Source of the DNA: Desulfurellales bacterium
Lineage (GTDB): Bacteria > Campylobacterota_A > Desulfurellia > Desulfurellales > Hippeaceae
Assembly (NCBI GenBank): GCA_027064065.1
Contig: JAMOQJ010000097.1
Coordinates: 1 to 35,004, forward strand
Length of the DNA stretch: 35,004 bases
Direction of reading: 5' to 3'
The translations under genes and the position numbers were made by a program. The notes below the pieces were generated by a model, which saw only the letters and a list, made by a program, of their open reading frames with translations, made no database searches and was not told the DNA's origin. Of this stretch, positions 31,193 through 34,208 are shown piece after piece (the stretch's first letter is position 1; the number at the start of each line of letters is the position of its first letter).

Positions 31193-31618
31193 TTAAAACT
31201 CTTCTACCTCAACGCCCATATTCACAGCCGTTCCAGCTATGATTTTCATAGCCTGATGTACATCGTTTGTATTCAAGTCAGGCATTTTAATCTTTGCTAT
31301 ATCTTCCAATTTCTCTTTCGATAGCTTTCCTACCTTCTGTCTTGCTGCATCGCTTGAGCCCTTTTCAATACCCAAAGCCTTCTTAATCAAAGAGCTTGCA
31401 GGCGGTGTTTTTGTTATAAAATCAAAAGATCTGTCTTTGTAAACGGTTATAATTACAGGTATTATGTCGTTTTTATCCTTTGTTGCATCATTAAACTTCT
31501 TAACGAAATCCATTATATTAACCCCATGCTGACCCAATGCAGGACCAACAGGCGGTGCAGGAGATGCTTTCCCTGCTTCTATTTGAAGTTTAATCTGCGC
31601 CATAAACTCTTTAGCCAT
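31193..31618 (-). CDS. rplK: 50S ribosomal protein L11
   Basis: Binds the GTPase-associated centre of 23S rRNA and is needed for RelA activation in E. coli. The 141 residues start [18 protein letters not shown]. The proline-rich linker [16 protein letters not shown] (about 20-35) is the thiostrepton-site segment. The C-terminal RNA-binding domain includes A-L-G-I-E-K-G-S and [10 protein letters not shown]. It lies 13 bases after nusG. Confidence 0.98.
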
Positions 31619-31631
31619 TTAAAAACTCCTT

Positions 31632-32174
31632 CTATTCTTCAACTTTTTCTACTTGGTTATAGTTTAACTCAACAGGAGTAGACCTACCGAATATGCTTAT
31701 CAATATCCTTAACCTTCCTTTGTCTACATCCACTTCCTCTATCGTACCGGTAAAATTGGCAAAAGGACCATCCAAAACCCTAACACTTTCTCCAGCTTCA
31801 AACGATACAGATAGCCTTGGAGATTCTTTAGATGTTTCGATTTTTTTGAATATATCGTCTACTTCTTTATCATCCAATGGAACGGGCTGATTCTTGTAGC
31901 CCACAAAGCCAGACACAAAAGACATTCTTTTAACTATGTTGTATAATTTATCACTCATCTTGGCTTTTATAAAAACATAACTTGGATACAAACACTTTCT
32001 AACCATTTCTTTCTTGTTGTTTTTCTTTATCTCTATAACTTCTTCGAATGGAACAAAAATATCTTCTATATCATCTTCAAGCCCTTCATTCTCTATTTTG
32101 TTTTTTAACATAGATTTAACCTTTTCTTCATATCCAACCTGCGTATGAAGGGCATACCACTTAAATTCGCTCAT
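31632..32174 (-). CDS. nusG: Transcription termination/antitermination factor NusG
   Basis: Processivity factor that binds the RNA polymerase clamp and links it to S10 or Rho. The 180 residues have the NGN domain (about 1-120), starting M-S-E-F-K-W-Y-A-L-H-T with K-C-L-Y-P-S-Y-V-F-I-K and F-V-G. A KOW domain at about 125-178 contains D-G-P-F-A-N-F-T-G-T-I and I-F-G-R-S-T-P-V-E-L. There are no extra domains. It lies between secE and rplK, the conserved secE-nusG-rplK order. Confidence 0.98.
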   Translation of the reverse strand: MSEFKWYALHTQVGYEEKVKSMLKNKIENEGLEDDIEDIFVPFEEVIEIKKNNKKEMVRKCLYPSYVFIKAKMSDKLYNIVKRMSFVSGFVGYKNQPVPLDDKEVDDIFKKIETSKESPRLSVSFEAGESVRVLDGPFANFTGTIEEVDVDKGRLRILISIFGRSTPVELNYNQVEKVEE

Positions 32175-32200
32175 TATATCTCTCTTTTTGAAGTATAAAT

Positions 32201-32383
32201 TTATTTAAACAAAGATTGAAGGCCTATCGAAAGAAAGTAATCAAGCACACTCAAAATGACAGCTACTATAATACTAAAAGCTAAAACCGATATAGTCGCT
32301 GAAGTAACTTCTTTCTTACCGGCCCAAACAACCTTTTTAAATTCTATCTTGACTTCTTCTAAAAAACTTAAAAACTTTTTCAT
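32201..32383 (-). CDS. secE: Preprotein translocase subunit SecE
   Basis: Small essential clamp of SecY. The 60 residues form the minimal single-span type: an amphipathic helix F-L-S-F-L-E-E-V-K-I-E-F-K-K-V-V-W (about 4-20) with the conserved W, then one transmembrane helix (about 31-55). The ATG is 10 bases after the encoded CCA end of tRNA-Trp. The spacer is TTAAATTATT, with no Shine-Dalgarno. No better start exists, because the conserved segment begins almost at once. After tRNA 3' processing the mRNA would be nearly leaderless. Confidence 0.95.
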   Translation of the reverse strand: MKKFLSFLEEVKIEFKKVVWAGKKEVTSATISVLAFSIIVAVILSVLDYFLSIGLQSLFK

Positions 32384-32393
32384 AATAATTTAA

Positions 32394-32470
32394 TGGCAGG
32401 CCAGGGAGGACTCGAACCCCCAACATGCGGTTTTGGAGACCGCCGCTCTACCAATTGGAGCTACTGGCCT
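32394..32470 (-). tRNA. tRNA-Trp (anticodon CCA)
   Basis: The 77 bases fold into a cloverleaf: acceptor AGGCCAG/CTGGCCT, discriminator G, encoded CCA, anticodon loop CTCCAAA flanked by GCGGT/ACCGC, and the TTCGAGT T-loop. It sits inside the tuf-rpmG-secE-nusG transcript, 3 bases after the rpmG stop and 10 bases before secE. RNase P and 3' maturation therefore should cut the mRNA on both sides. Confidence 0.97.
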
Positions 32471-32473
32471 ATC

Positions 32474-32623
32474 CTATTTCACCTCTTTATGTAAAGTATG
32501 TTTCTTACAATAAGGACAATATTTTCTTAATTCAAGTTTTTCCTTGTTCTGTTTTTTATCCCTTGTGCTGGTATAGTTCTTTCTTTTACATTCGCTGCAA
32601 GCCAACGTTACCATTTCACGCAT
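32474..32623 (-). CDS. rpmG: 50S ribosomal protein L33 (zinc-binding form)
   Basis: A 49-residue gene read directly: ATG at 32623, TAG at 32474. It starts M-R-E-M-V-T-L-A-C-S-E-C-K and ends H-K-E-V-K. C9, C12, C36 and C39 form the C+ zinc ribbon of L33. The first ATG has AGAGGGG 7 bases upstream. It lies between tuf copy 2 and tRNA-Trp, the tuf-rpmG-trnW-secE-nusG order seen in many bacteria other than E. coli. Confidence 0.96.
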   Translation of the reverse strand: MREMVTLACSECKRKNYTSTRDKKQNKEKLELRKYCPYCKKHTLHKEVK

Positions 32624-32627
32624 TACT

Positions 32628-33847
32628 AAACCCCTCTTACTCTATTATCTCTGTGATAACACCAGCACCAACAGTTCTTCCGCCTTCTCTGATAGCAAAG
32701 CGTGTCTCTTTCTCTAATGCTACAGGTGCTATGAGTTCAACTGTCATTTCAACATTATCTCCCGGCATAACCATCTCTACGCCTTCTGGGAGCTTTACCG
32801 TTCCTGTTACGTCTGTAGTTCTAACGTAGAATTGAGGTCTGTAGCCATCAAAGAAAGGTGTGTGTCTTCCGCCTTCGTCCTTTGTTAGAACGTAAACCTG
32901 AGCTTTGAATTTTGTGTGAGGAGTAATAGAGCCTGGTTTTGCTAAAACCATTCCTCTTTCTACTTCTTCCTTCTTTATCCCTCTTAAAAGAACTCCTACG
33001 TTGTCTCCAGCCATTGCATCATCAAGTATCTTTCTGAACATCTCTAAGGATGTAGCAACTGTTTTTCTCGTTTCTCTGAAGCCTACTATTTCTACTTCGT
33101 CGCCTGCTTTGATTACGCCTCTTTCAACTCTACCTGTTACAACTGTTCCTCTTCCTGAGATTGTGAAGATATCTTCGATTGGCATTAGGAATGGTTTGTC
33201 TGCATCACGGTCAGGTGTAGGTATGTATTCATCAACAGCATCCATAAGCTCTTCTATTGCTTTTGTCCATTCGTTTTCCTGTCCATCAGGAGTCTCAAGT
33301 GCTTTTAGAGCACTTCCTCTTATTACTGGGATATCATCACCTGGGAATTCATATTTGGATAGAAGTTCTCTAACTTCCATCTCTACAAGGTCAACCAACT
33401 CTTCGTCGTCAACCATATCTACCTTATTTAGGAATACTACTATGTATGGAACGCCAACCTGTCTTGCAAGAAGGATGTGTTCTCTTGTTTGTGGCATTGG
33501 ACCGTCTGCTGCTGATACAACAAGTATAGCACCGTCCATCTGAGCTGCACCTGTAATCATGTTTTTGATGTAGTCGGCATGCCCAGGGCAGTCAACGTGT
33601 GCATAGTGGCGTTTATCTGTTTCATACTCAACGTGAGCGGTATTTATTGTAACGCCTCTTTCTTTTTCTTCAGGTGCGTTATCTATATCGTTGTAATCCT
33701 TAAACTCTGCAGAGCCCTTAGATGCCAATACCTTTGTTATAGCTGCTGTTAGGGTTGTTTTACCATGGTCAACGTGACCTATTGTACCGATATTAACGTG
33801 TGGTTTGGTTCTGACATATTTTTCCTTTCCCATAAAAGGCCTCCTTA
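32628..33847. repeat. tuf direct repeat, copy 2 (1220 bases)
   Basis: Partner of 16444-17663, same orientation, offset 16184 bases. No difference was seen on reading. The repeat covers the tuf coding sequence with 9 bases after its stop and 14 before its start; flanks diverge at once. The interval between the repeats carries rpmG through fusA, including rpoB and rpoC. Confidence 0.93.
32637..33833 (-). CDS. tuf: Elongation factor Tu, copy 2 (tRNA-linked)
   Basis: Second EF-Tu gene, encoding the same 398 residues as 16453-17649 with no nucleotide difference seen. GTPase motifs and domains are as in the other copy. Context differs: it is the first protein gene after four tRNA genes and precedes rpmG, corresponding to the E. 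coli tufB locus. Only 22 bases separate it from tRNA-Thr(GGU). It is expected to be driven by the strong tRNA promoter at 34224-34251, so EF-Tu output comes from two units. Confidence 0.99.
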
Positions 33848-33855
33848 TTGTTTTA

Positions 33856-33931
<76 letters not shown>

Positions 33932-33948
33932 AACCCTAAAAATAAAAA

Positions 33949-34025
33949 TGGAGCGGGAAACGGGACTCGAACCCGCGACCCTCAGCTTGGAAGGCTGACG
34001 CTCTAGCCAACTGAGCTATTCCCGC
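33949..34025 (-). tRNA. tRNA-Gly (anticodon UCC)
   Basis: A 77-base cloverleaf with encoded CCA: acceptor GCGGGAA/TTCCCGC, anticodon stem TCAGC/GCTGA around loop CTTCCAA, T-loop TTCGAGT. Third of the array, in the place of E. coli glyT. Confidence 0.97.
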
Positions 34026-34041
34026 TCTCGCAAAGATTTAA

Positions 34042-34127
34042 TGGTGGAGAGGGGAGGACTCGAACCTCCGAAGGCGAAAGCCGGCAGATTTACAGTCTGC
34101 TCCCTTTGACCGCTCGGGAACCTCTCC
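34042..34127 (-). tRNA. tRNA-Tyr (anticodon GUA)
   Basis: An 86-base class II tRNA with encoded CCA: acceptor GGAGAGG/CCTCTCC, anticodon stem GCAGA/TCTGC around loop CTGTAAA, and a long variable arm (GGCTTTCGCC) as expected for bacterial tRNA-Tyr. Second of the array, in the place of E. coli tyrU. Confidence 0.97.
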
Positions 34128-34132
34128 ATAAA

Positions 34133-34208
34133 TGGAGCTGGCGAAGGGACTTGAACCCCCAACCTGCTGATTACAAGTCAGCTGCTCTACCGATTGAGCT
34201 ACGCCAGC
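34133..34208 (-). tRNA. tRNA-Thr (anticodon UGU)
   Basis: A 76-base cloverleaf with encoded CCA: acceptor GCTGGCG/CGCCAGC, anticodon stem GCTGA/TCAGC around loop CTTGTAA, T-loop TTCAAGT. First gene of the array, only 15 bases from the promoter -10, so the 5' leader is very short. It corresponds to E. coli thrU. Confidence 0.97.

Follow-up and report, generated by a model that had tools for sequence, protein, structure and literature searches.

In every genome of the class Desulfurellia in which a SecE protein was matched, the chosen secE start lies 5–13 nt downstream of a tRNA-Trp gene (22/22 loci), and the intervening sequence has no pairing with the anti-Shine–Dalgarno (anti-SD) sequence (0.0 in 22/22). 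We put at about even the chances that 3' processing of the tRNA frees a near-leaderless secE message that is translated independently of a Shine–Dalgarno (SD) sequence, with a number of sister genes following the same route. The main rivals to this reading are neutral compaction of the genome and initiation on the uncut precursor.

Organisation of the secE locus

The stretch of DNA analysed (35,004 nt, hereafter the window) corresponds to contig 97 in a 129-contig, 1.53-Mb genome that is 97% complete and is designated G000. The named relatives closest to its NusG come from eight MAGs of the Desulfurellales or Desulfurellaceae (92–77% identity), one of which is labelled Hippea; on the strength of these and of the kinship of the genomes compared, the class is taken to be Desulfurellia. 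On the minus strand of the window, tRNA-Thr(TGT)-Tyr-Gly-Thr(GGT), tuf, rpmG, tRNA-Trp, secE, nusG and the genes from rplK to rpoB follow one another (Table 1), and secE is likely to be part of a single polycistronic run extending from the tRNAs through nusG and beyond. This order, in which tRNA-Trp immediately precedes secE, is that of the ancestral tufB–secE cluster as given in the available text of PMC8046335, whilst the P. aeruginosa arrangement described in the available part of PMC8765398 is tufB-tRNA-Trp-secE-nusG, without rpmG. Only one tRNA-Trp gene is present among the tRNAs read from G000. Upstream of it the 3' end of rpmG reads ...GTGAAATAG, with the stop codon TAG at 32476–32474.

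Table 1. Features at and around the tRNA-Trp/secE junction in the window
Feature	Position	Strand	Remarks
tRNA-Thr(TGT)-Tyr-Gly-Thr(GGT) cluster	33856..34208	-	Precedes tuf; same arrangement in the known tufB operon
tuf	32637..33833	-	22 nt 3' of tRNA-Thr; SD AAGGAGG retained despite tRNA linkage
rpmG (L33)	32474..32623	-	Stop TAG 3 nt 5' of tRNA-Trp; purine-rich SD (agagggg) by eye
Gap GAT (3 nt), rpmG stop to tRNA-Trp 5' end	32471..32473	-	
tRNA-Trp, anticodon cca	32394..32470	-	3' CCA encoded (ending GCCA); ARAGORN
A/T-only spacer (10 nt), TTAAATTATT	32384..32393	-	Without SD
secE (60 aa)	32201..32383	-	ATG at 32383; Pfam SecE 61.6 bits, cut-off 22.7
nusG	31632..32174	-	Purine-rich aaagagaga, by eye the weakest SD among eight

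By eye, a purine-rich SD precedes all eight of the other genes checked (tuf, rpmG, nusG, rplK, rplA, rplJ, rplL and rpoB) and is lacking at secE, where the spacer has no anti-SD pairing (dG 0.0). An apparent TTG start behind a strong SD was seen at rplJ (window 30333). The initial annotation had placed the tRNA 3 nt past the rpmG stop, with its CCA 10 nt ahead of the secE ATG, and had described the spacer as A/T-only and devoid of an SD; the distances are correct to the base and the absence of an SD holds both here and across the 22 class loci. That annotation, made on the window alone, did not mention the ancient gene order or the sister junctions in the same genome.

No other in-frame start for secE was found upstream or downstream in G000: a TAA 3 codons upstream ends the frame, no ATG, GTG or TTG lies in frame within the next 34 codons and homology to SecE is already present from residue 6 of the ORF (Pfam). 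These observations, together with the position of the rpmG stop 90 nt upstream and the folded tRNA lying between, make it most improbable that secE is coupled to rpmG or another upstream frame, or that its true start lies elsewhere, even though some features of other genomes would suit such a reading: in G009 and G016 no stop codon interrupts the secE frame across the tRNA, G001 has an in-frame TTG 3 nt past the CCA, and a frame that opens with a TTG within the tRNA of G148 continues into secE. We also consider it very improbable that secE has a transcript of its own from a separate promoter within tRNA-Trp or rpmG. A promoter scan of positions 31400–33800, limited to the sigma-70 consensus and so recognising no other type of site, returned four sigma-70-like sites, fewer than in shuffled sequences (mean 5.4), all of them on the plus strand and none on the minus strand. 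Moreover, the tRNA sequence is constrained, and a transcript starting within the 10-nt spacer would still have no SD.

Conservation of the junction within the class

We searched 25 genomes of the class (G000–G024), some of them fragmentary, and matched SecE in 22, the three without a match being 78–88% complete; in all, 195 loci were scanned for SecE, with none at L044 and a weak match at L050. The secE start was chosen by rule, and taking the most upstream start instead gives distances of 3 nt in G001 (the TTG mentioned above) and, for two genomes of f3, of 6 nt. The CCA-to-ATG distance is 10 nt in the window and below 10 nt in 15 of the 22 class loci. When pooled, the class spacers lack C altogether and contain 127 T, 64 A and 13 G, and ten of the 22 are A/T only. 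In the ten loci whose spacers were compared letter by letter, the letters vary while the short, SD-less state persists. Because the junction is kept in 22/22 class genomes although the spacer letters change, we conclude that it is not due to chance. At five of the 22 class loci (L005, L006, L010, L011 and L013) the secE start consists of a tandem ATG ATG.

The loci from outside the class, 91 in number, were taken from the best-scoring search rows (one search matched 369 of 389 genomes) and are not a random sample, with no Campylobacter or Helicobacter genome among them. ARAGORN called a tRNA-Trp within 200 nt of secE in 65 of the 91, with a median gap of 50 nt, and called none within that distance in the remaining 26, three of which have a tRNA-like motif upstream. 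An SD at dG <= -3.4 is present in 49 of the 65 (dG is above -1 in seven), and in 20 of the 25 loci whose gap does not exceed 30 nt. Gaps below 14 nt were seen in two of the 65 (G148 and G272, members of one family), both of 6 nt and without an SD (L276 and L277), the junction in G148 sitting behind an rpmG-like ORF and tRNA-Trp. Unlike the old published gene order, therefore, the tight SD-less tRNA-Trp/secE junction is not general: most sampled outgroup gaps are longer and have an SD, whereas those of the class are 5–13 nt and have none. As the lineages are related, this contrast carries no p-value.

Other genes abutting tRNAs

A new observation is that secE is not alone, as several G000 genes share a close SD-less junction with a tRNA. 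We listed tRNA-to-ORF junctions in four genomes: G000, G009 (a single contig; same family as G000), G016 (same order as G000) and G034, the one unrelated control. The lists cover genes starting up to 29 nt from a tRNA and omit ORFs without family support, namely a 64-aa ORF 13 nt from tRNA-Asn and an 89-aa TTG-started ORF 17 nt from tRNA-Val(cac) in G000, and a 72-aa ORF 13 nt from tRNA-Arg(tct) in G009. In G000, the SD-less genes are dciA (3 nt from tRNA-Arg(CCG)), a MoCF/cinA-like gene (6 nt from tRNA-Asp), sua5 (9 nt from tRNA-His), sir2 (9 nt from tRNA-Ser(GCT)), secE (10 nt) and nif3 (12 nt from tRNA-Met). The loci for MoCF/cinA-like, sua5, nif3, dciA and sir2 are L108, L122, L124, L134 and L188, respectively. 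The corresponding set in G009 comprises dciA, which overlaps tRNA-Arg(CCG) (-1), secE (10 nt), MoCF behind tRNA-Asp and nif3 behind tRNA-Met (16 nt each); sua5 lies 23 nt from tRNA-His in this genome and has a weak SD (-3.9). G016 has SD-less junctions at MoCF (tRNA-Asp, 6 nt), a ygjP-like gene (tRNA-Ser(GCT), 6 nt), nif3 (tRNA-Met, 9 nt) and secE (10 nt), and a weak one (dG -2.1) where an rmuC-like gene lies 10 nt from tRNA-Leu(TAG).

At other junctions in these three genomes the SD is retained: this is so for tRNA-Thr and tuf, tRNA-Glu and hup, tRNA-Val(GAC), and tRNA-Leu(CAG) and metK, as well as for tRNA-Ala and tRNA-Ser(CGA) where a gene follows. In the control genome, three junctions of 14–15 nt have SD pairing (-3.6 to -4.9, spacer only), a 19-nt junction reaches -6.5 and a 21-nt junction is without SD pairing. 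The prs gene behind tRNA-Gln was initially a candidate SD-less gene at 8 nt; since an SD (dG -4.6) precedes another of its starts, at 29 nt, it was counted as SD-bearing.

Pfam was run on the proteins of the G000 genes, on DciA from G009 and on the YgjP- and RmuC-like proteins from G016; likeness is the basis for naming the nif3 and MoCF products of G009 and G016, as well as hup and metK. The Pfam matches begin at ORF residues 1 to 26 and at profile position 1–3. In sua5 and sir2 the match sets in late (residues 18 and 26, respectively), and for these two genes homology alone is thus insufficient to fix the start. For the 15 SD-less starts tested in these three genomes (G000, G009 and G016), no in-frame start with an SD at dG <= -3.4 lies within the following 34 codons, the best alternative being -2.4 for the ygjP-like gene of G016.

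Frequency of SD-less starts

How unusual is the absence of an SD? Scoring an SD at dG <= -3.4 and taking 277 G000 genes (about a fifth of the genome) as background, we found that tRNA punctuation is not genome-wide in G000: an SD is present at the best start of 223 of the 277 sampled genes and at the chosen start of eight of the 14 tRNA-linked genes. An SD-less start is by itself not rare in G000 (54/277 background genes, with 20/76 in G009 and 17/71 in G016); an A/T-only sequence from -10 to -1 is rare (3/277). Counted on the spacer only, SD-less genes make up 6/14 of the tRNA-linked set in G000 (p 0.046), 4/12 in G009 (p 0.42) and 5/9 in G016 (p 0.06); with tRNA bases allowed, both dciA starts reach dG -3.8 on the acceptor-stem side and the counts fall to 5/14 in G000 and 3/12 in G009. 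For dG above -1, the tRNA-linked and background counts are 6/14 and 21/277 in G000 (p 0.0007), 4/12 and 11/76 in G009 (p 0.12), and 4/9 and 9/71 in G016 (p 0.03). The excess of SD-less starts at tRNAs is therefore modest in each genome, and all three are relatives of one another. What stands out is how close the junctions are and how this closeness persists at secE, MoCF and nif3.

These frequencies bear on the possibility of neutral compaction, in which deletion pressure would have brought genes up against tRNAs and removed their SDs, with SD-independent translation sufficing and no link to processing. SD-less background genes are numerous, and the abutting genes other than secE look like low-demand genes (nif3, sua5, sir2 and dciA), whilst tuf, hup and metK retain strong SDs behind their tRNAs; spacer length is, in addition, also kept at SD-bearing junctions (22/23/22 nt for tuf, 19/21/19 nt for hup). 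All of this fits neutral compaction, which nevertheless seems to us somewhat unlikely: secE is an essential gene, and it is SD-less at all 22 class loci although 9–13 nt could hold a short SD.

A possible processing route for secE

According to the processing model, RNase P would cut at the 5' end of tRNA-Trp, whilst RNase E/G or RNase Y would act as the endonuclease that cuts at or just past the CCA, in the A/U-rich spacer. The resulting secE mRNA would have a 5' monophosphate and a leader of 0–10 nt and would be entered by the ribosome independently of an SD. The same route would serve nif3, the MoCF/cinA-like gene, sua5, sir2 and dciA, and tRNA maturation would in this way create the 5' ends of a few messages in an otherwise SD-using bacterium, as it does in mitochondria. 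With one tRNA-Trp gene, its transcripts must presumably be processed often. The supply of SecE would, as the initial annotation proposed, depend on tRNA maturation.

What is the evidence for such a route? The CCA is encoded on every tRNA read (43 in G000, 45 in G009, 43 in G016 and 42 in G034, where the Infernal totals are 45, 47, 43 and 43, respectively). Among the eight class genomes tested for nucleases, RNase Y is present in all eight and RNase E/G in five (G000, G001, G005, G009 and G020); the search for RNase E/G was negative in the other three, G016, G021 and G023, which counts against the model. RNase Z exceeds the family cut-off in only two of the eight, G021 and G023, and no protein in G000 does so. 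CCA-cutting RNase Z occurs in Thermotoga, and an enzyme of this type was considered for G000 and rejected, the best candidate being only remotely RNase Z-like (69 bits against a cut-off of 293). This 252-aa protein (L270, contig 55) has 35 PDB matches, among which 1ww1 and 2e7y, which we take to be the T. maritima RNase Z entries, are absent. In E. coli, cuts have been mapped a few nucleotides downstream of tRNA 3' ends and fit a model of RNase E cleavage followed by trimming, according to the available text of PMC4681348. Of the seven genomes searched for the 16S tail with the anti-SD, two (G005 and G009) yielded it and five did not; in G000 the tail was not found with a longer pattern either.

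Alternatively, the uncut tRNA–mRNA precursor could be translated in an SD-independent manner, with tRNA and SecE competing for the same molecule. The AUG would then be preceded by 14 unpaired nucleotides (discriminator, CCA and spacer; 4 + 10), with the tRNA fold lying at the ribosome's edge, and 14 nt roughly matches the 30S mRNA exit. However, the 3–6 nt spacers at sister junctions would put the folded tRNA 7–10 nt from the start codon, leaving little room, and the sole tRNA-Trp gene must presumably be processed efficiently. In addition, the secE start region (-10 to +15) is predicted to be less open in the precursor (0.30) than in the cut message (0.50), a weak measure made on one sequence, for which the background median is 0.48 (80 of the 277 G000 genes). 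We therefore consider translation of the precursor unlikely. A near-leaderless message and an uncut precursor, the two outcomes that the initial annotation offered, are still the right pair to choose between; the short sister spacers and the better predicted openness favour cutting, whilst an overlap in G009 is contrary to a simple cut after the CCA at that locus.

Overlaps between CCA and start codon

In G009, the A of the dciA ATG is the last base of the tRNA-Arg(CCG) CCA, the sequence reading ...GGGTACGCC-ATG-ATA-CGA... (L326, about 98–110). The tRNA itself offers no further in-frame start, and downstream none occurs ahead of codon 36. By eye, the G009 protein resembles that of G000 from its first residues, and both match Pfam DciA. 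As a cut after the CCA would destroy this start, the overlap speaks against such a simple cut at this locus and fits translation of the precursor. A second potential overlap is found in G021 (L021), where secE has two in-frame ATGs, the first overlapping the CCA of tRNA-Trp in the same way and the second lying 5 nt past it.

Where ATG and CCA overlap, no single transcript can supply a CCA end that is fully encoded together with a start codon that is intact. Cutting inside the CCA, on the other hand, would leave a C-AUG start, with the CCA subsequently repaired. Cleavage within the CCA of encoded tRNAs is described for P. acnes and S. coelicolor in the available portions of PMC3848588 and PMC4681348, which make no mention of a downstream message; the same cut at a CCA–ATG overlap would give CAUG. 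More broadly, and only tentatively, Desulfurellia may possess a partial, mitochondria-like tRNA punctuation covering secE, nif3, MoCF/cinA-like and dciA, and in some genomes sua5, sir2 and the ygjP-like gene. The overlaps, at dciA in G009 and possibly at secE in G021, would then force either repair of the tRNA or a choice between tRNA and mRNA that sets the protein level.

Relation to known systems and significance

Bacterial mRNAs that are leaderless or have short leaders, of less than 10 nt, are described in the available text of PMC4681348. The secE message would resemble these in having its AUG near the predicted 5' end and no SD (22/22 loci), and would differ in that its 5' end would arise by tRNA processing rather than at a transcription start. 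In mitochondrial tRNA punctuation, it is the excision of tRNAs that makes the mRNA ends. The likeness lies in tRNAs that abut or overlap ORFs (3 nt after rpmG, 10 nt before secE and -1 to 16 nt elsewhere), and the difference in that this is a bacterial genome with intact SD use, in which only a handful of genes are concerned. In the open-access literature searched we found no prior report of a tight SD-less tRNA-Trp/secE junction and, judging by titles and abstracts, no Hippea or Desulfurella transcriptome; a C. jejuni Ribo-seq paper names SecE and, in its available text, is silent on the secE leader.

The group has cultured members. If the processing model is correct, an essential translocon subunit and several other proteins would be tied to tRNA processing, and SD-independent initiation on processed 5' ends would be open to study at natural, conserved loci. 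Where a start codon shares its first base with the CCA of a tRNA, the order of tRNA and mRNA maturation would be directly testable.
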